NCBI GenBank assembly: GCA_031255875.1
Contig: JAIRRR010000136.1
Coordinates: 1-16,549 of the forward strand
DNA length: 16,549 nucleotides
Source: Treponema sp.
GTDB lineage: Bacteria > Spirochaetota > Spirochaetia > Treponematales > Breznakiellaceae
Direction of reading: 5' to 3'
Below, in pieces: positions 7,665 through 16,484 of this stretch. A program made the position numbers and the translations under genes. Numbering within the stretch: the first letter of the stretch is position 1; every line of letters starts with the position of its first letter. The notes under the pieces are model-generated. The model did not search any database. It was not told the DNA's origin and worked only from the letters and a program-made list of their open reading frames with translations.

Positions 7665-8006
7665 ATGGTCAGGGGCGAAATCTGGTGGGCGGAATTGCCC
7701 TCCCCCCGTGGTTCGGAACCGGCAAAAAAACGCCCGGTGCTGATTGTACAGGGCGACGATTTCAACCTTAGCAATATCAACACGGTTATTTGCGTGGTGA
7801 TTACGTCCAACCTGACGCTTGCGAACGCGCCGCCCAATATTCTGCTTGAAACAGTACATTCCGGCCTCAAGCGGACATCGGTAATCAATTTTTCGCAAAT
7901 CGTAACGGTGGACAAGTCCTTTTGTACCCGCCTGGTTGCCATGCTGCCAAAACAGTGTATTGCCCGAATCAACGACAGCCTGAAAACCATTCTCGACATT
8001 CCATGA
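7665..8006 (+). CDS. mazF: MazF/PemK-type endoribonuclease toxin
   Basis: The 113-aa product matches the MazF/PemK fold, a sequence-specific, ribosome-independent mRNA interferase. It starts MVRGEIWWAELPSPRGSEP and continues KKRPVLIVQGDDFN, with the likely catalytic Arg at 23 in RPVLIVQ. The second strand CVVITSNL carries the conserved Thr at 47. The C-terminal helix region is QCIARINDSLKTIL. The length is normal and no key residue is missing, so the toxin looks active. GGGGAAG, 12 bases before the ATG inside the antitoxin gene, is a usable ribosome binding site. The ATG directly follows the antitoxin TAG, so translation is likely coupled. The cleavage sequence cannot be predicted here. Confidence 0.92.
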   Translation: MVRGEIWWAELPSPRGSEPAKKRPVLIVQGDDFNLSNINTVICVVITSNLTLANAPPNILLETVHSGLKRTSVINFSQIVTVDKSFCTRLVAMLPKQCIARINDSLKTILDIP

Positions 8007-8049: not shown

Positions 8050-8087
8050 AAGTTTCCCGGGCCCCTTCAATACTTGCTTGAAAGATC

Positions 8088-8116
8088 GTGCAAATTCGGG
8101 CAAGATAACTTATACT
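8088..8116 (+). promoter_or_regulatory. Possible promoter of the adhE operon
   Basis: TATACT (8111-8116, five of six to consensus) is preceded at 17 bases by GTGCAA (8088-8093), a weak -35. The start site would be near 8123, giving a leader of about 90 bases before the adhE ATG. A poor -35 is often seen where an activator or a repressor controls the promoter. Confidence 0.4.
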
Positions 8117-8213: not shown

Positions 8214-10850
8214 ATGGCTACAAAAAATCGTGAGATTGTTAAGGACGCCGAATCGCTGGAACGGGCTTTGAACGAAATCAGAAAGGCCCAGGCGATTTAC
8301 GCGGGTTTCACCCAGGAACAGGTGGACCGCATCTTCTTCGCCGCGGCGGAGGCTGCGAACAGGGCGCGGATCCCCCTGGCAAAGCAGGCGGTGGAAGAGA
8401 CGGGCATGGGGGTCGTGGAAGACAAGGTTATCAAGAACCACTACGCGGCCGAGTACATTTACAACGCCTACAAGGACACGAAAACCTGCGGGGTAATCGA
8501 GACGGACCGGGCGGCCGGGATCAAAAAGGTGGCGGAGCCTGTCGGCCTTATCGCGGCGGTAATCCCCACCACCAACCCGACGTCCACCGCGATATTCAAG
8601 ACCCTCCTCGCGCTTAAGACGCGGAACGGGATCATCATCTCCCCGCACCCCCGGGCGAAAGCCTGCACCGACGCGGCGGCGGGGATTGTGCTTGACGCGG
8701 CTGTCGCGGCGGGCGCGCCGGCGGGGATTATCAACTGGATAGACGAGCCCAGCCTGGAGATGACCAACACGGTGATGAGGGAGGCGGACATAATCCTCGC
8801 CACCGGCGGGCCGGGCATGGTTAAGGCCGCCTATTCCTCCGGGAAGCCGGCCCTGGGCGTGGGATCGGGAAACACGCCGGCGATTATCGATTCCGGCGCG
8901 GACATTAAGCAGGCGGTAAACTCGATCATCCACTCGAAGACCTTTGACAACGGGATGATCTGCGCGTCCGAGCAGTCGGTAATTGTGCTTGACAAGGTCT
9001 ACGAGGCGGTAAAGAAGGAGTTCGAGTACCGCGGCTGCTATTTCCTCAGCCCCCAGGAAACGGAAAAGGTGCGCAAGACCATCATCATCAACGGGGCGCT
9101 CAACGCGAAGATCGTGGGGCAGAAGGCCCACGCGATTGCCGCGCTGGCCGGGGTGGCGGCCCCGGAAAGCGCGAAGATACTTATCGGCGAGGTGGCGAGC
9201 GTGGAGCTGTCCGAGGAATTCGCCCACGAAAAGCTCTCGCCGGTCCTGGCAATGTACCACGCGAAGAATTTCGCCGAGGCGCTGGACAAGGCGGACCGCC
9301 TGGTGAAGGACGGGGGCTACGGCCATACCGCGTCGGTGTACCTCGACATGGCGGCCGGCGGGGAGGAAAAGCTCGCCGCCTTCGCGGAGCGGATGAAGAC
9401 CTGCCGCATCCTGGTGAACACGCCCTCCTCTCACGGGGGCATAGGGGATCTTTACAACTTCAAACTGCTCCCCTCCCTTACTTTGGGGTGCGGCACCTGG
9501 GGCGGGAATTCGGTTTCCGAAAACGTGGGGGTAAAGCACCTTCTCAACATCAAAACCGTCGCGGAACGGAGGGAAAATATGCTGTGGTTCAGGGCCCCTG
9601 AAAAGGTATACATAAAGAAGGGCTGCCTTCCCGTGGCCCTGGGCGAATTGAAGGACGTAATGGGCAAGAAACGGGCGTTTATCGTTACGGACAAATTCCT
9701 CTACGCCAACGGCTACACGAAAACCGTTACCGACAAGCTCGACGAGATGGGGATTGCGCACGAGAGCTTCTTCAATGTCGAGCCCGACCCGACTCTGGCC
9801 TGCGCCCGGGAAGGCGCGGCGCTTATGGCCGCCTTCAAGCCGGACGTGATTATCGCGGTGGGGGGCGGCTCGGCCATGGACGCGGGGAAGATAATGTGGG
9901 TGCTCTACGAACATCCGGACGCGGACTTCCAGGACATGGCCATGCGTTTTGTCGATATACGGAAGCGTATCTACACTTTCCCCAAAATGGGGGAGAAGGC
10001 CTACTTTATCGCGGTGCCTACCTCGGCGGGGACCGGGAGCGAGGTAACGCCCTTCGCGGTTATCACCGACGAGAAGGCGGGAATGAAGTACCCCCTGGCG
10101 GACTACGAGCTGTTGCCGGACATGGCGATTGTGGACGCGGACATGCAGATGGACGCCCCCAGGGGCCTTACCAGCGCGTCCGGCATTGACGCCATGACCC
10201 ACGCGCTCGAAGCCTACGCCTCGATGCTTGCCACGGAATTTACCGACGGCCTCGCGGTAGAGGCGCTCAGGCTGATCTTCGAGTACCTGCCCCGGGCGTA
10301 CAACAACGGGGCGGCGGACCCCCGGGCGCGGGAAAAAATGGCCCACGCCGCGACTATCGCCGGCATGGCCTTTGCCAACGCCTTTCTGGGGGTGTGCCAT
10401 TCAATGGCGCACAAACTCGGGGCGTTCCACCATCTGCCCCACGGCGTGGCTAACGCGCTGATGATAAGCGAGGTGATGCGCTTCAACGCCTCGGAAACGC
10501 CCCCCAAGATGGGGACCTTCCCCCAGTACGAGTACCCGCGCACCCTGGCGCGTTACGCGCGGATTGCCGACTCGCTGGGGCTCAGGGGCAGGACCGACGG
10601 GGAAAAACTCGAGGCGCTGATCGCCGCCGTGGAAAAACTCAAGGAAGAGGTGGGAATCAAAAAAACCATACGGGATTACGGCATAGACGAGCAGGACTTC
10701 CTCGCGCGGCTTGACAGCATGAGCGAGGCGGCCTTCGACGACCAGTGTACCGGCGCCAACCCCCGCTACCCTTTGATAAGCGAGATCAGGCAGATGTTCC
10801 TCAGCGCGTATTACGGGGCGGGCAGCGTCGCCGCCGGAGGAGGCAAATAA
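8214..10850 (+). CDS. adhE: Bifunctional acetaldehyde-CoA/alcohol dehydrogenase
   Basis: The 878-aa fusion enzyme reduces acetyl-CoA to acetaldehyde and then ethanol, using two NADH, and is the main cytoplasmic ethanol route in many fermenters; it often forms spirosome filaments. Residues 1-440 are the aldehyde dehydrogenase half, with PVGLIAAVIPTTNPTSTAIFK, GGPGMVKAAYSSGKPALGVG and catalytic C250 in DNGMICASEQ. After a linker, residues 460-870 are the iron-type alcohol dehydrogenase, with IAVGGGSAMDAGK for NAD, GTGSEVTPFAVITD, and the metal-ligand region HALEAYAS and CHSMAHKLGAFHHLPHG. Length and key residues are normal, so both activities look intact. AAGGAAAG before ATG 8214 supports the start. 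It is the first gene of the operon and overlaps the next ORF by one base (TAATG), so it is co-expressed with the kinase, hydrogenase sensor and phosphatase. Confidence 0.97.
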   Translation: MATKNREIVKDAESLERALNEIRKAQAIYAGFTQEQVDRIFFAAAEAANRARIPLAKQAVEETGMGVVEDKVIKNHYAAEYIYNAYKDTKTCGVIETDRAAGIKKVAEPVGLIAAVIPTTNPTSTAIFKTLLALKTRNGIIISPHPRAKACTDAAAGIVLDAAVAAGAPAGIINWIDEPSLEMTNTVMREADIILATGGPGMVKAAYSSGKPALGVGSGNTPAIIDSGADIKQAVNSIIHSKTFDNGMICASEQSVIVLDKVYEAVKKEFEYRGCYFLSPQETEKVRKTIIINGALNAKIVGQKAHAIAALAGVAAPESAKILIGEVASVELSEEFAHEKLSPVLAMYHAKNFAEALDKADRLVKDGGYGHTASVYLDMAAGGEEKLAAFAERMKTCRILVNTPSSHGGIGDLYNFKLLPSLTLGCGTWGGNSVSENVGVKHLLNIKTVAERRENMLWFRAPEKVYIKKGCLPVALGELKDVMGKKRAFIVTDKFLYANGYTKTVTDKLDEMGIAHESFFNVEPDPTLACAREGAALMAAFKPDVIIAVGGGSAMDAGKIMWVLYEHPDADFQDMAMRFVDIRKRIYTFPKMGEKAYFIAVPTSAGTGSEVTPFAVITDEKAGMKYPLADYELLPDMAIVDADMQMDAPRGLTSASGIDAMTHALEAYASMLATEFTDGLAVEALRLIFEYLPRAYNNGAADPRAREKMAHAATIAGMAFANAFLGVCHSMAHKLGAFHHLPHGVANALMISEVMRFNASETPPKMGTFPQYEYPRTLARYARIADSLGLRGRTDGEKLEALIAAVEKLKEEVGIKKTIRDYGIDEQDFLARLDSMSEAAFDDQCTGANPRYPLISEIRQMFLSAYYGAGSVAAGGGK

Positions 10851-11599
10851 TGGGCGAACGGAAGATTATTGTCGAGCGGGAAAAGAAGAAGATATATCTG
10901 GAGGACGGCAGGGTCTACAAGGTTATGGGAAGCGAATACCCCGCGTCGGATGTTTTTAACGAGGCGCTGAACCTGGCCGCCGTGGGCGAGACGGGCCTGA
11001 AAGTGCCGAGGCTGCACGAGGTTACCAAAATCGAAGGGAACTGGGCCATCGTCTGGGAGTACATCGAGGGCGTTACCCTGGCCGAGCTGATTGAAAAAGA
11101 GCCGGACAGGCTTAACGAGCATCTGGGCCGCTTCGTGGATATCCAGATTGAAATGCACGGCTATTCCGCGTCCCGGCTCGCGCTCCTGCGGGACAAGCTG
11201 CACCGGAAGATCAACACGTCGGGGCTCGACGCCACAACCCGGTACGAGCTTTCCACGCGGCTCGACAGCCTGCCGAGGCACACGAAGCTTTGCCACGGGG
11301 ACTTCAACCCCAGCAATATCATCATCACTTCCGCGGACGAGGCCTACATCATCGACTGGTCCCACGCCGCGGCGGGGAACGCCTCCGCCGACGCGGTGCA
11401 GACCTGGATGCAGTTCGTGCTGGCCAAGCAGTTCGTCATCGCGGAAAAGTACTTCAACCTGTTCTGCGCCAGGACCGACACGGCCAAACAGTACGCCGAC
11501 AAGTGGATACCGATTGTGGCGGCGGCCCAGCTCAGCAAGGCGGCGGAGGACAACCGCAACCTCCTGCACAACTGGGCCAACGTGGTGGAATACGAATAG
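10850..11599 (+). CDS. APH/choline-kinase-fold small-molecule or protein kinase
   Basis: The 249-aa product has a complete small kinase fold of the aminoglycoside phosphotransferase superfamily. In the N-lobe are VYKVM with the likely ATP-anchoring Lys at about 24, FNEALNL carrying the helix-C Glu, and the hinge VWEYIEGVTLAELI. In the C-lobe are the catalytic loop HGDFNPSN (H149, D151, N156) and the metal-binding IIDW (D169). It starts at ATG 10850, overlapping the adhE stop, with GGAGGAGG just upstream. The true substrate is unknown. An antibiotic-resistance role is unlikely given the operon. Its place between adhE and a sensory hydrogenase/phosphatase pair suggests a signalling kinase (inference). 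The stop is 14 bases before the hydrogenase ATG. Confidence 0.85.
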   Translation: MGERKIIVEREKKKIYLEDGRVYKVMGSEYPASDVFNEALNLAAVGETGLKVPRLHEVTKIEGNWAIVWEYIEGVTLAELIEKEPDRLNEHLGRFVDIQIEMHGYSASRLALLRDKLHRKINTSGLDATTRYELSTRLDSLPRHTKLCHGDFNPSNIIITSADEAYIIDWSHAAAGNASADAVQTWMQFVLAKQFVIAEKYFNLFCARTDTAKQYADKWIPIVAAAQLSKAAEDNRNLLHNWANVVEYE

Positions 11600-11613
11600 G
11601 GTCCGGCCGCAGG

Positions 11614-13320
11614 ATGCCCGAGTATCTGAGGCTGAAGGCGACCGACTGCAAAACCTGCTACAAGTGCATCAGGCGCTGCCCGGTTAAGTCCATCAAGTTT
11701 GAAAACAACAAGGCCGAGATCGTAAGCGAGGAATGCATACTCTGCGGGTACTGTTTTGTGGCGTGCCCGCAAAACGCAAAAGAGATGCGGAGCGACCTCG
11801 ATTCCGCGGAAGCGCTGATCGGGAGCGGGAAAGATGTCTGGGCAAGCCTGGCCCCGTCCTTCGTGGCGAATTTCGGGGGGGCCGGCATAGCCGCCATGAC
11901 GGAGGCGCTGAAGAAGCTGGGCTTCGCCGCCGTCGAGGAAACCGCCGTCGGGGCGACAATTGTCAAAAAGCGCTACGATGCCATGGTGAACGAGGGGGAA
12001 CAGCGGGTCATCATAACGACCTGCTGCCCCACGGTGAACCTGCTGGTGCAAAAATACTACCCGGCGGCCCTCCCCTACATGGCCCACGTGGTTTCCCCCA
12101 TGCACGCCCACTGCCTTGACATCAAGCGGCGCAGCCCGGAAGCGAAAACCGTGTTCATCGGCCCCTGCATCTCCAAAAAAGCCGAGGCGGAGTCCGACGC
12201 GGCGGGGGTGGTGGACTGCGTGATCACCTTTCGGGAGCTTTCCCTGTGGCTCAGGAAACGGGATATAACCATCGAGCAGGGGGAGGGGCTTCCCGGGGCT
12301 TCCGGCCCCGCCCGCGCCGGGAACGGGAACACCCTGGCGCGGCTCTTTCCCGTCAACGGGGGCATACTGCGCACCATGGCGAAGGAAAACAGGGAGTACA
12401 GCTACCTTTCGGTAGACGGGATCGAAAACTGCAAGGTCTATATCGAGGACATAATACGGGGCCATCTGGACCGCTGCTTTATCGAAATGTCCGCCTGTTC
12501 GGGAAGCTGTTCCATGGGGCCCGCGATGAGCAAAAACTGGGAGCACCCGGTGCGGAACTATATCGCCATTAACGGCGCCGCAGGGACCGGCGACTTCCCG
12601 GTTTTCGACTACAGCGGGGAGCATCTCCTGCGGAAATTCGAATCCCTTGCGCCGAGAAAGTTCCACTTCGGCAACGAGGCGATAGAAGAAGTGCTGAAAA
12701 AAACCGGGAAAACAAAGGCCGAGCACGAGCTTAACTGCGGGAGCTGCGGGTACGACAGCTGCCGGGACAAGGCGCAGGCGGTACTGGAGGGGAAGGCGAC
12801 TCTGACCATGTGCCTCCCGTACCTCAAGGAAAAGGCGGAAACCTTTTCGGACAACATCATCAAAAACACGCCCAACGCCGTCGTGGTGCTCAACGAGAAC
12901 TACGAGGTGCAGCAGATCAACGCGGCCGCGTGCCGCCTCTTCAATGTAAACCCCTCGAACATCCTGGGGGATCAGGTCGTGCGGATCATGGACCCCCTGC
13001 CGTTTATCGAAGCAAAGGAAAAGCTGTCAGCCAATTATAACAAACACGTTTACCTGGCCGATTACCGCAGGCATGTTGAGCAGACCATCATCTATGACAA
13101 GAGCTACCATATTATTATTTCAATTATGCGGGACATAACCGAAGAGGAGACGCGGAAAGAGGCGAAGGAGAACACCAACCGCAAAACAATCGAAGTGGCG
13201 GACAGGGTAATAGAAAAGCAGATGAGGACCGTGCAGGAAATAGCGTCGCTGCTCGGCGACACCGCCGCGGAAACCAAGATCGCCCTGACCAAGCTGAAGG
13301 AATCGCTTTCCGATGCCTAA
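11614..13320 (+). CDS. hydS: Sensory-type [FeFe] hydrogenase with C-terminal PAS domain
   Basis: The 568-aa product starts with two [4Fe-4S] ferredoxin motifs (C12, C15, C18, C22 and C41, C44, C47, C51). The hydrogenase core (about 60-345) keeps the three H-cluster motifs: TTCCP (C137, C138), GPCISKK (C185) and EMSACSGSC (C295, C299), so the four H-cluster ligands are present. The usual MPC is GPC and the third motif has GSC for GGC, changes seen in sensory rather than catalytic enzymes. A further CxxCx4Cx16C site follows (C375, C378, C383, C400). Then come a PAS domain (about 411-505) and a helical tail (506-568). There is no kinase or cyclase output domain, so signalling must go through partners. 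Known relatives are the HsfB/HfsB-like H2-sensor candidates of treponemes and clostridia. The stop overlaps the phosphatase start by 8 bases. The ribosome binding site is weak. Confidence 0.9.
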   Translation: MPEYLRLKATDCKTCYKCIRRCPVKSIKFENNKAEIVSEECILCGYCFVACPQNAKEMRSDLDSAEALIGSGKDVWASLAPSFVANFGGAGIAAMTEALKKLGFAAVEETAVGATIVKKRYDAMVNEGEQRVIITTCCPTVNLLVQKYYPAALPYMAHVVSPMHAHCLDIKRRSPEAKTVFIGPCISKKAEAESDAAGVVDCVITFRELSLWLRKRDITIEQGEGLPGASGPARAGNGNTLARLFPVNGGILRTMAKENREYSYLSVDGIENCKVYIEDIIRGHLDRCFIEMSACSGSCSMGPAMSKNWEHPVRNYIAINGAAGTGDFPVFDYSGEHLLRKFESLAPRKFHFGNEAIEEVLKKTGKTKAEHELNCGSCGYDSCRDKAQAVLEGKATLTMCLPYLKEKAETFSDNIIKNTPNAVVVLNENYEVQQINAAACRLFNVNPSNILGDQVVRIMDPLPFIEAKEKLSANYNKHVYLADYRRHVEQTIIYDKSYHIIISIMRDITEEETRKEAKENTNRKTIEVADRVIEKQMRTVQEIASLLGDTAAETKIALTKLKESLSDA

Positions 13321-14536
13321 GCTCTGCACCGATCTGGGATACATAAGCCTCAACAAATACGGGGAGCAGCTCTGCGGGGATCACGTGGAGATAGCCCATT
13401 CGTCGCGGAGCGAGTACTCCCGCATCTTCGGGAAAGATACGGGCAGCGACGATTCCACCGTAATAGTGCTGGCGGACGGCCTCGGGAGCGGGGTAAAGGC
13501 CAGCATCCTCTCCACCCTTACCGCCCGGATCATCTCTACCATGATAGCAAGCTCCCTTACGGTAGAAGACTGCGTGTCCACCATCGCGGCCACCCTGCCC
13601 GTGCGGGCCGAAATCGGCATAGCCTACTCAACCTTTACCATAATCAAAATCAAAATAAACCAGGAGGCGGAGATTATCCAGTACGATAATCCCGGGGTGA
13701 TCCTCCTGCGCGAAGGAAAGCTGTTCGACTACCCTGTAATATCCGAAACTATCGGCGATAAAATTATCCGCAAGACAAGGATCGCGCTACGGGAAGGGGA
13801 TATTTTTGTCGCCATGAGCGACGGGGTCATCAACGCCGGCACCGGGCCCGAGCTGAACATGGACTGGCAGCGGGACGATGTCGCGTCTTTTCTGGAGGGT
13901 ATCTACGACCCGCGCTGGACCGCGAAGACCCTGAGCGCCATGCTGATAAACAAGTGCTATTCCCTTTACGGGGGCAGGCCCGCCGACGACACCACGGTCT
14001 GCGCCGTAAAGGTCCGCGCCCGCAGGCAGGTCAATATGCTCGCCGGCCCGCCCCACGATCCGGGCGACCATTCAAAGATGATGAGCCTCTTTCTTTCCAA
14101 AGAGGGAAGGCACATCATTTCGGGCGGCACTACCTCCCGCCTGGCCGCCGAATTCCTCAAGCGGCCGCTTATCACGGACATTCCCCCCTCGGTATCGGAT
14201 CCGGACATCCCCCCGATTTCAAAAATCGAAGGGATAGACCTGGTAACCGAGGGGATAATTACCCTGCGCAAAGTGGCCGAGTACGCGGCGGATTATATCA
14301 AGGACAACGAAAACTACGCGGACTGGAACAGCGGCGACGACGGCGCGTCCCGGATTGCCCGCTTCCTCTTTGAGGAAGCGACGGACATCAACTTCTTCAT
14401 AGGCAGGGCGGTAAACGCGGCCCATGAAAACGAACAGAACGCCCAGATAGCCTTCTCCCTTAAAATGCGCCTGATAGAAGAACTGGCCGCGAACCTTGAA
14501 ACCATAGGCAAGCGGATAAAGCTGAGTTACTTTTAA
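13313..14536 (+). CDS. SpoIIE/PP2C-type serine phosphatase with extra C-terminal domain
   Basis: The 407-aa product is a metal-dependent serine/threonine phosphatase of the SpoIIE/RsbU branch. The N-terminal 235 residues carry the catalytic motifs: ADGLGSG (A54-G60, metal ligand D55), the central GDIFVAMSDGVINAG (D170) and PADDTTVCAV (D225-D226). Residues about 245-407 form a second domain not typical of RsbU-like proteins. It contains ISGGTTSRLAAEFL (GGTT at 271-274) and a long helical C-terminus. I cannot name this domain. ATG 13313 lies inside the hydrogenase gene (ATGCCTAA overlap), so translation is probably coupled, preceded by AAGGA. It may remove phosphate placed by the upstream kinase-like protein or act on an unlinked target such as an anti-sigma antagonist. 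Confidence 0.9.
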   Translation: MPKLCTDLGYISLNKYGEQLCGDHVEIAHSSRSEYSRIFGKDTGSDDSTVIVLADGLGSGVKASILSTLTARIISTMIASSLTVEDCVSTIAATLPVRAEIGIAYSTFTIIKIKINQEAEIIQYDNPGVILLREGKLFDYPVISETIGDKIIRKTRIALREGDIFVAMSDGVINAGTGPELNMDWQRDDVASFLEGIYDPRWTAKTLSAMLINKCYSLYGGRPADDTTVCAVKVRARRQVNMLAGPPHDPGDHSKMMSLFLSKEGRHIISGGTTSRLAAEFLKRPLITDIPPSVSDPDIPPISKIEGIDLVTEGIITLRKVAEYAADYIKDNENYADWNSGDDGASRIARFLFEEATDINFFIGRAVNAAHENEQNAQIAFSLKMRLIEELAANLETIGKRIKLSYF

Positions 14537-14571: not shown

Positions 14572-14600
14572 TTGCCACGAACGGAGCTTCGGGGTATAGT
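14572..14600 (+). promoter_or_regulatory. Promoter of aspS, possibly leaderless
   Basis: TTGCCA (14572-14577) and TATAGT (14595-14600), five of six matches each, are separated by exactly 17 bases. Six bases separate the -10 from ATG 14607, so the transcript probably starts on or next to the start codon. The 70-base gap after the phosphatase gene shows no clear terminator. Confidence 0.7.
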
Positions 14601-14606
14601 TGCCTT

Positions 14607-16484
14607 ATGGAAAGCATGAAGCGTACAAACACCTGCGGGGAACTGCGGAAGGCCGATGCCGGGAAGCGGGTCGTCCTTAACGGCTGGGTGCACCGGAAGC
14701 GGGACCACGGCGGCATTTCCTTTATCAGCCTGCGGGACCGTTACGGCGTCACCCAGGTTGTGGTTGACTGCGAGCAGAATGGCGATCTGGCGGCGTTGAG
14801 CGCCGAGCTGAGAAACGAATTCTGCATTGCCGTCGAAGGGTCCGTAAGGGAAAGGCCCGGCAGCATGGTCAACAGCGAAATGATCACCGGGGAAATCGAG
14901 GTCGCCGCGGACAGGATAGTAATTCTGAACAGGTCCCTGGCGCTGCCTTTCCAGATCGACGCCGAAGGGTCGGACGAATCGGAAGCGAAAGAAGAACTGC
15001 GCCTAAAGTACCGCTACCTGGACCTCCGCTCCTCGGGGATGCAGAAGCGCATACGGCTACGGAACGAGGCGGCTTTCGCAGTGCGGGAATGGCTGGTAAA
15101 GCAGGGTTTTTACGAAATAGAGACCCCGACATTCATCAGGTCCACGCCGGAGGGGGCCAGGGACTACCTGGTGCCTTCGCGCATCCACCCGGGAAAATTC
15201 TACGCCCTGCCCCAGTCGCCCCAGCTTTACAAGCAGATACTTATGGCGGCGGGTTTTGACAAGTACTTCCAGATTGCCCGCTGTTACCGGGACGAGGACG
15301 CCCGGGGGGACCGCCAGCCCGAGTTTACCCAGATCGACATAGAGATGTCCTTCGTGGGGCGGGAAGACATACTTGCCGTAACCGAGGGGCTGATGGGCTA
15401 CGTGTTCAAAAAAACGATAGGCGTGGAACTTCCCGCGCATTTTGCCCGGCTCAGCTACGAAGAAGCCATGGAACGCTACGGCTCGGACAAGCCCGATCTC
15501 CGTTTCGGCCTTGAGCTGCGGGACTTTTCCCCCTATGTCGCCGCGTCCGGCTTCCAGGCTTTCAAGGACGCGCTGGAGCGGGGCGAGGCTGAGAGAAGCG
15601 CCGCCGCCGCTAAAGGCATTACCGTTCCGGGCGGCGCGGTAAAAGCGCTGGTGGTCCCTTCTGCGGCAATGGGCGGCGCGTCCTATTCCAGAAAGCAGAT
15701 CGAGGAACTGGAAGCCCACGCGAAGATATACCGGGCGAAGGGGCTTGCCTGGATGAAGGCGGGCGGTACGGAGGGCGCGCCGCTTTTGGAAGGCGGCGTT
15801 TCCAAATTCTTCCAGGACCAGGCCGGGCCGATATGCAACGGGCTGGGCGCGAAAAGCGGGGATCTTATCCTTATCGTGGCGGACTCCGCGAGGAAGACCG
15901 CGAATACCGCGCTGGGGGCCGTGCGGTCAAAACTGGGAAAGGACCTTAAACTTGCCGAAGGACCGGGCGGCGGGCGGCGCTTCGAATTTGTCTGGATAGT
16001 AGACTTTCCGTTATTCGAATTTAACGAGGAGGAGAACCGCTGGCAGGCGGCCCACCACATGTTCAGCTACCCGCAGGAACAGTACCACGGCACCCTGGAG
16101 CAGGACCCCGGCGCGGTAAAGGGCGACCTCTACGATCTGGTGCTCAACGGCTACGAGCTTGCCTCGGGCTCCATCCGTATCCACAGCCCGGAACTGCAAA
16201 ACCGCGTCTTCGGCATAGTCGGCATCCCCCCCGAGGAGGCGCAGGCCAGGTTCGGCTTTCTCACCGAAGCATTCAAATACGGCGCGCCCCCCCACGGCGG
16301 CATCGCGCCGGGCTTTGACCGGCTGGTAATGATTATGGCGGGGGAAACTTCCATTAAGGAAGTGATCGCCTTTCCGAAAGATTCCTTCGCGAAGAGTCCC
16401 ATGGACGACTGCCCCGGGGAAGTTGACGAAAAACAGCTTAAAGAACTGCACCTGTCGGTCGTCTACCCGGAACAAAAAAAATGA
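14607..16484 (+). CDS. aspS: Aspartyl-tRNA synthetase, bacterial type
   Basis: The 625-aa class IIb synthetase charges tRNA-Asp (or tRNA-Asp and tRNA-Asn when AsnRS is absent). The N-terminal OB-fold starts TCGELRKADAGKRVVLNGW, with GWVHRKRDHGG and SLRDRYG. Class II motif 2 is ARCYRDEDARGDRQPEFTQ at about 224-242. A bacterial GAD insertion domain (about 290-430) follows. Motif 3 is GGIAPGFDRL with R572. The length is normal for bacterial AspRS. Two ATGs compete: 14607 (MESMKRTN) and 14616 (MKRTNTCG). The second matches the usual family start. The first fits a leaderless transcript, because neither has a good ribosome binding site. The stop overlaps the next gene as ATGA. Confidence 0.97.
   Translation: MESMKRTNTCGELRKADAGKRVVLNGWVHRKRDHGGISFISLRDRYGVTQVVVDCEQNGDLAALSAELRNEFCIAVEGSVRERPGSMVNSEMITGEIEVAADRIVILNRSLALPFQIDAEGSDESEAKEELRLKYRYLDLRSSGMQKRIRLRNEAAFAVREWLVKQGFYEIETPTFIRSTPEGARDYLVPSRIHPGKFYALPQSPQLYKQILMAAGFDKYFQIARCYRDEDARGDRQPEFTQIDIEMSFVGREDILAVTEGLMGYVFKKTIGVELPAHFARLSYEEAMERYGSDKPDLRFGLELRDFSPYVAASGFQAFKDALERGEAERSAAAAKGITVPGGAVKALVVPSAAMGGASYSRKQIEELEAHAKIYRAKGLAWMKAGGTEGAPLLEGGVSKFFQDQAGPICNGLGAKSGDLILIVADSARKTANTALGAVRSKLGKDLKLAEGPGGGRRFEFVWIVDFPLFEFNEEENRWQAAHHMFSYPQEQYHGTLEQDPGAVKGDLYDLVLNGYELASGSIRIHSPELQNRVFGIVGIPPEEAQARFGFLTEAFKYGAPPHGGIAPGFDRLVMIMAGETSIKEVIAFPKDSFAKSPMDDCPGEVDEKQLKELHLSVVYPEQKK

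Follow-up and report, generated by a model that had tools for sequence, protein, structure and literature searches.

The four-gene locus and its proteins

Contig JAIRRR010000136.1 of Treponema sp. (GenBank assembly GCA_031255875.1), a gut spirochete whose genome (G000 in our survey) comprises 1.91 Mb in 319 contigs and is 76% complete, was analyzed over its whole length of 16,549 nucleotides (contig C289; hereafter the window). Its forward (+) strand carries four closely spaced genes that bring together an ethanol-forming enzyme, a kinase, a hydrogenase-like sensor and a phosphatase: adhE, encoding a bifunctional acetaldehyde-CoA/alcohol dehydrogenase of 878 amino acids (aa) (8214..10850; ATG 8214, TAA 10848-10850); a gene for a kinase of 249 aa with the aminoglycoside phosphotransferase (APH) fold (10850..11599; ATG 10850, TAG 11597-11599); a gene for a HydS-type [FeFe]-hydrogenase-like sensor of 568 aa (11614..13320; ATG 11614, TAA 13318-13320); and a gene for a SpoIIE/PP2C-type phosphatase of 407 aa (13313..14536; ATG 13313, stop at 14536). 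The first two genes overlap by one base (TAATG), a 14-base gap (11600-11613) lies between the kinase gene and hydS, and hydS overlaps the phosphatase gene by eight bases; the coordinates and junctions that a first-pass annotation had given for this DNA were all confirmed from the open reading frames of the window. The stop-start overlap suggests that translation of AdhE and the kinase may be coupled. All four genes had ratios of nonsynonymous to synonymous substitution (dN/dS) of 0.08-0.20 against two relatives, with 0.12-0.14 for hydS.

The window AdhE matched the full-length equivalog NF010378, comprising an aldehyde dehydrogenase (ALDH) and an iron-dependent alcohol dehydrogenase (Fe-ADH) part, at 1372.9 bits (cut-off 951), as expected of a bifunctional AdhE, and its closest solved relative is structure 8uhw, which we take to be the AdhE of Clostridium thermocellum. 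The kinase has an APH phosphotransferase domain by Pfam and the conserved residues K24, E38, H149-G-D151, N156 and D169-W170; its fold, catalytic HxDxxxxN motif and Mg-binding Asp place it with the APH and choline kinases. RIO1, a family of atypical protein kinases, was matched above its Pfam threshold as well (30.9 bits versus 22), and no other Pfam protein-kinase family was matched at E ≤ 0.001. In profile comparisons the best match was the choline kinase LicA (E 6.2e-6), followed closely by the protein kinase StkP (E 1.2e-5, N-lobe only), and PknB was also matched. The fold matches of the kinase model that were shown, 50 in number, are of APH type and include no Hanks-type structure, which is no evidence against such a fold.

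The sensor combines 4Fe-4S, Fe_hyd_lg_C, FeS and PAS domains in the architecture of group C HydS proteins, with two N-terminal 4Fe-4S sites, an H-cluster domain with its Cys ligands, a C-terminal FeS site and a PAS domain. Its H-cluster ligands are retained, as are the contact motifs APS and PCxSKK. By motif-based placement, two of three second-sphere residues are changed, with G183 and S293 at the places of CpI M353 and M497, the Ser being shared with the HydS of T. maritima, and a Cys (C137) is kept at the place of CpI C299, which is still Cys in 17% of sensory sequences (PMC10055695). The phosphatase has a SpoIIE domain with metal-binding Asp residues, as in PP2C/SpoIIE enzymes, and this catalytic domain matched SpoIIE, RsbU and RsbX among others. 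Its C-terminal part (residues about 240-407; window 14030-14536) matched zero Pfam families at E ≤ 0.001 and contains GGTTS, IPP and DLVTEG motifs that are kept in the aligned HydS-linked phosphatases. The catalytic residues of both the kinase and the phosphatase are conserved in alignments.

Conservation of the operon in treponemes and Clostridia

The survey of adhE neighborhoods in related treponemes that had been proposed with the first-pass annotation was run, and the four-gene order recurs in two further genomes of the window's genus (G001 and G002), with near-identical junctions: a 1-base adhE/kinase overlap, an 8-base HydS/phosphatase overlap, and kinase-HydS gaps of 13 and 17 bases. 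Leadbettera azotonutricia, represented by a complete genome of 3,855,671 bases (G030) that encodes a HydS identical to the one of this species, has the order adhE-kinase-ferredoxin-HydS-HydA2-phosphatase with proteins 57-81% identical to those of the window; unlike the window unit, it retains the ferredoxin and HydA2, and its genome has HydF and HydG. A HydS scan of named genomes, of which the best 80 of 532 relatives were analyzed, extended the pattern beyond the treponemes, with adhE, kinase and HydS in order at 38 of the 80 loci and a phosphatase directly behind HydS at 77 of 80. Most of these genomes bear titles of Clostridia or of families within them; since a few are titled Bacteroides, Alistipes or the like, 'clostridial' is a loose term for this set. 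The operon-like unit of ethanol enzyme, HydS-type sensor, phosphatase and kinase that the first-pass annotation had proposed is therefore conserved in the window's genus, other treponemes and Clostridia.

Three known systems show what kind of operon this is. On plasmid pRUMAL01 of Ruminococcus albus 7 (RUMAL_RS17350-RS17385), the order is rex-adhE-phosphotransferase-2Fe2S-2Fe2S-HydS-SpoIIE-HydA2, with the same core order on one strand as in the window and identities of 75% for AdhE, 48% for the kinase, 50% for HydS and 54% for the phosphatase; missing from the window unit are rex, the two 2Fe-2S genes and HydA2. This gene run agrees in number and named members with a published eight-gene cluster whose transcripts, according to the available text, were 111-fold lower in co-culture with an H2 consumer (PMC6776011), and for which the R. 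albus authors proposed H2 sensing by HydS plus the phosphatase (PMC6776011; PMC10838669). In C. thermocellum, the region Cthe_0422-0430 is described, in the parts of the papers at hand, as rex, adhE, an aminoglycoside phosphotransferase, a small gene, an Fe-S/PAS sensor, SpoIIE and hydrogenase subunits, jointly down-regulated after furfural (PMC3848806; PMC3561251); it shares with the window the series adhE-kinase-sensor-phosphatase in one co-regulated region, and the window unit is without its rex, small Fe-S gene and hydrogenase subunits. In this region AdhE is Cthe_0423 and the kinase Cthe_0424, a locus tag that appears in one transcriptome paper. The hfsABCD genes of Thermoanaerobacterium saccharolyticum offer counterparts of the sensor pair, a HydS-like hfsB and a phosphatase-like hfsC, and are described in the available text as four genes, including the catalytic hfsD, without adhE or an APH kinase. 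There, adhE transcripts rose 2-3-fold in hfsA/hfsB deletions, hfsB deletion raised adhE transcripts and ethanol, and NADH-ADH activity increased in that strain and NADH-ALDH activity did not, an uneven change from which the authors proposed additional post-transcriptional regulation (PMC5707799). The same text cites Zheng et al. for a proposal of signaling from HydS to an adjacent Ser/Thr kinase. The window thus holds a treponeme form of the clostridial adhE-HydS operon, cut to four genes and of a kind already known; a new operon type was considered and rejected, given the same core in the R. albus record and in the published R. albus and C. thermocellum clusters.

Gene loss in place is the most likely origin of the four-gene form, since the 2Fe-2S gene is gone and one locus (L052) still holds HydA2 between the phosphatase gene and aspS. 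A thioredoxin-like (Trx-like) 2Fe-2S gene stands between the kinase gene and HydS in the loci that have both (L034 and L035 among them), with exceptions at L050, L051, L052 and the two long-gap loci L054 and L077; it is absent from the window, L050, L051 and L052, where the gaps are 13-82 bases. Across the genus genomes it had only weak matches in G000 and G002 and none in G001. No catalytic hydrogenase (HydA2 or HydABC) belongs to the unit in the window, G001 or G002, where aspS follows directly behind the phosphatase gene, and rex is not in the window unit; a 36% identical Rex homologue is encoded elsewhere in G000, on another contig, and in G001.

Treponemes also carry other HydS-phosphatase units, which share the sensor and phosphatase pair with the window, often with HydA; their HydS, about 33% identical to that of the window, forms a separate lineage, and the first loci compared had no adjoining adhE or kinase. 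Some HydS of this lineage stand behind adhE-kinase in other genomes. Behind HydS-phosphatase at L061, L055 and L060 come two hydrogenase-like genes, one encoding about 625 aa and the other 570-585 aa, and one HydS (G021:C284, L036) is split by stop codons, as a decaying copy or through assembly errors, and was left out. Ballor et al. reportedly described H2 sensors of termite treponemes in 2012.

Upstream of adhE in the window, a promoter-like block (TGCAA...GATAAC...TATACT) at about 8086..8116 on the + strand was missed by a simple scan and recognized by eye in an upstream comparison, with similar blocks in G001 and G002; a simple pattern found no Rex-like operators 5' of the window adhE. The downstream neighbor aspS (14607..16484, +) lies outside the system and has its own promoter-like site (TTGCCA-17-TATAGT; 14572..14600, +; simple scan), which recurs in similar form in G001, G002 and L052 and likely marks the end of the four-gene unit. 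Between 8214 and 14536 the scan found zero promoter-like or terminator-like sites on the + strand; it is a weak scan, with 10 promoter-like sites in the window versus 4.8 in shuffles and 22 terminator-like sites versus 21.0. From this layout we infer that adhE through the phosphatase gene form one transcript and that aspS is transcribed separately. A MazF/PemK-type toxin gene lies just 5' of adhE on the same strand (7665-8006), and tRNA and Rfam scans of the window were empty.

Neighbors of the kinase gene and the AdhE clade

Searches with the kinase model and with AdhE each covered 390 genomes from the order, an even draw out of a larger group. Forty-one kinases were ortholog-grade (over 220 bits), and 35 of these stand directly behind a listed AdhE; two more (G212, G265) follow an adhE fragment at a contig end, three (G279, G034 and G289:C253) begin at a contig end, and a single copy (G221) is a true exception, giving 37 of 38 scorable copies directly behind adhE. 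Of the 37 distinct treponeme copies with 1.7 kb or more of downstream sequence, 19 are followed by HydS and 18 are not. In 188 genomes of one clostridial order, the kinase follows adhE in 8/8 cases and has HydS within 1.5 kb in 2/8, one of the two being the centre genome (G395), itself found through HydS. Among all 102 distinct kinases, a set that includes many collected through HydS and omits those sharing their last 80 residues (L203 and others), 86 of the 95 with upstream room follow adhE; the nine that do not comprise seven HydS-linked kinases from the HydS-scan set, the G221 copy (L192) and one fragment.

Under a constant adhE-kinase pair the sensor itself is exchanged, with HydS of a different lineage, only 31-39% identical, at the eight treponeme loci L181, L183, L184, L186, L198, L205, L208 and L209. 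Two further loci have the pair with other surroundings: a HydA2-like gene (74%) follows directly at L185 (G184), with neither HydS nor phosphatase within 4.8 kb downstream, and in the complete 4,059,867-base genome G059 (L200) the pair is followed by 7 kb without HydS. These gene orders suggest that the kinase has a closer tie to adhE than to HydS, which is the new point of this analysis. The idea that the kinase is a part of the HydS module only was rejected, as it stays behind adhE where HydS is absent; with 18 of 37 scorable treponeme copies lacking HydS behind them, it is not the sensor's alone. Because the kinase keeps its adhE neighbor even without HydS, the earlier guess that AdhE could be its client gains indirect support. 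Pairwise distances show a near-perfect co-divergence of HydS and phosphatase (r = 0.99), with r = 0.70 for kinase-adhE and 0.63 for kinase-HydS.

The association is confined to one kind of AdhE. A kinase lies behind 35/44 AdhEs at 69% identity or more, behind 0/10 at 55-69% and behind 0/20 of lower identity, and three of the nine kinase-less AdhEs in the upper band end at a contig end. Counted per genome, 35 have both genes, five the kinase only and eight this AdhE alone (Fisher p = 9e-37, with no correction for kinship). In a quick tree whose rows were partly picked for the kinase, the kinase-linked AdhEs fall into one clade of 70 rows, including five unlinked ones, with three changes in total. 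At several places in the tree, treponeme rows are nested within clostridial ones (L180; L181, L183, L184 and L186-L188; L202-L203), which suggests that the adhE-kinase pair may have been transferred. A kinase-less AdhE at L250 (G012) is followed by a HydA2-like gene 51% identical to the HydA2 of L. azotonutricia.

Potential phosphosites were sought by comparing 65 kinase-linked with 19 unlinked AdhEs for columns in which at least 90% of the linked sequences share one residue class and no more than one of the five nearest unlinked sequences retains it. Nine columns were found, five of them within 288-335 and two with Ser/Thr (T289 and T818); four of the five nearest unlinked AdhEs come from treponemes and fall in a single identity band, and these columns are confounded by kinship. 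T289 is thus a candidate phosphosite, as a lead only. In the literature, titles and abstract openings yielded no AdhE kinase, and the available text of PMC7488673 and PMC6874960 reports no phosphorylated AdhE.

Proposed mechanism, its signal and alternatives

The mechanism that we infer joins two units, one being adhE with its own APH-fold kinase and the other the sensor pair of HydS and PP2C/SpoIIE phosphatase. The kinase would modify AdhE, or something on which AdhE activity depends; the reduction state of HydS, at the H-cluster or the Fe-S clusters, would be read via PAS and would set the phosphatase, which would remove the mark of the kinase, and H2 or redox pressure would thereby set the amount of reductant passing to ethanol. 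Taken as a whole, with a kinase mark on the AdhE side and a HydS-set phosphatase as eraser, we hold this mechanism tentatively, at somewhat less than even confidence, and phosphorylation of AdhE by the kinase is a good hypothesis within it. A more specific version appears unlikely in its full form, namely that one AdhE clade has a dedicated, overlapping APH-fold kinase that phosphorylates and thereby switches AdhE (candidate T289, in the kinase-specific patch K288-T289...E335), with HydS-PP2C, where present, as the H2/redox-controlled eraser. The first-pass annotation had proposed that H2 or redox state directs reductant to ethanol through protein phosphorylation; its operon-like unit is upheld, the link itself was already published, the kinase is not the sensor's alone, and protein phosphorylation is an assumption because the kinase model has the APH/choline-kinase fold.

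Several observations weigh against this mechanism or parts of it. The nearest folds of the kinase model in the fold search are aminoglycoside phosphotransferases and choline kinase, which are small-molecule kinases, and Ser/Thr residues are not enriched in the columns specific to kinase-linked AdhE (2/9). Seven loci keep the kinase with HydS and no adjoining adhE, so the kinase is also tied to HydS; in six genomes of such loci that were searched for AdhE, two show no match and four have an AdhE elsewhere, two of the four with a second kinase behind the distant adhE (L247, L248). Spearman coefficients favor kinase-HydS (0.73) over kinase-adhE (0.65), and distance correlation does not decide which of the two is the kinase's partner. 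STAS-domain proteins are common targets of SpoIIE-type phosphatases, so opposing this kinase may not be the role of the phosphatase here. Lastly, the [FeFe]-hydrogenase maturases HydF and HydG were not recovered in the window's genus, each being over cut-off in 0/3 of its incomplete genomes (G000, G001, G002); HydF was also below cut-off in G005, and HydG in G344, G005, G193, G034 and G184.

The maturase result bears directly on the nature of the signal. HydF was over cut-off in G361, G030 and G008 and HydG in G361 and G030, and each family passed its cut-off in 1/14 named control genomes. As HydF and HydG were not found, the H2 signal of the first-pass annotation is doubtful in the window's genus, and 'redox sensor' is a safer term than 'H2 sensor' for this HydS. 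It is possible, if rather unlikely, that HydS in this genus no longer senses H2 and acts as a plain Fe-S/PAS redox sensor, HydA2, the ferredoxin and probably the maturases being gone. Such a change would be consistent with the absence of both maturases from the three genus genomes and their presence in the relatives G361 and G030, and with a unit that lacks ferredoxin and HydA2; however, HydS still has its H-cluster ligands along with both contact motifs, its gene has a dN/dS of 0.12-0.14, G000 encodes a HydABC-type HydA with canonical H-cluster motifs, and in genomes 64-90% complete the maturase genes may merely be missing with unassembled contigs. The encoding of hydrogenase-like proteins where maturases were not found may reflect genome gaps or another maturation route.

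The fold of the kinase model makes a small-molecule substrate a serious rival to AdhE. The kinase could serve AdhE chemistry by phosphorylating or clearing a metabolite, a cofactor form or an acetaldehyde adduct, with no role in signaling, and HydS and the phosphatase could separately regulate transcription of the operon; we consider this a real possibility, short of probable. It names no metabolite, however, APH and protein kinases have a common catalytic core, the profiles match RIO1 and StkP too, and the kinase stays beside HydS at the seven loci that have no adjoining adhE. A transcriptional route, to which we give a similar and equally provisional weight, would have HydS and the phosphatase alter the phosphorylation of an unlinked regulator that sets adhE expression, such as a STAS-type anti-anti-sigma factor, whether or not Rex takes part, the kinase phosphorylating that regulator. 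The transcript changes reported for R. albus (PMC6776011) and for the hfsA/hfsB deletions (PMC5707799) would be consistent with such a route, as would the resemblance of the phosphatase's catalytic domain to SpoIIE, RsbU and RsbX and the occurrence of rex, which immediately precedes adhE in R. albus and is also present at or close to several further HydS-scan loci and in the C. thermocellum region. Rex is nevertheless outside the window unit, its homologue lying on another contig, and the ADH and ALDH activities of the hfsB deletion, in the text available, did not change together (PMC5707799).

An accidental neighborhood, with adhE and the sensor genes under separate promoters, would fit the many genomes in which adhE and HydS are separable. 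It is highly improbable against the shared order and near-identical junctions in three genus genomes, the recurrence of the order in other genera and Clostridia, the 1-base adhE/kinase overlap, the lack of an internal + strand promoter-like or terminator-like site, and the co-regulation published for R. albus and C. thermocellum, as far as the available texts go; chance was rejected on the gene order shared across the genus, other genera and Clostridia.

The shift of fermenters between ethanol and acetate plus H2 as H2 accumulates is an old question, and how HydS-type sensors signal to adhE is left open by the cited papers, in their available parts. The genome comparison directs attention to the overlooked APH-fold kinase gene directly behind adhE, which keeps its place beside AdhE where the sensor has been lost or exchanged. 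Its tie to one AdhE clade is a new and testable point, and organisms already used for ethanol work carry the pair. If the more specific version, with a dedicated AdhE kinase, is true, the window's genus would hold the smallest natural form of an AdhE kinase switch.

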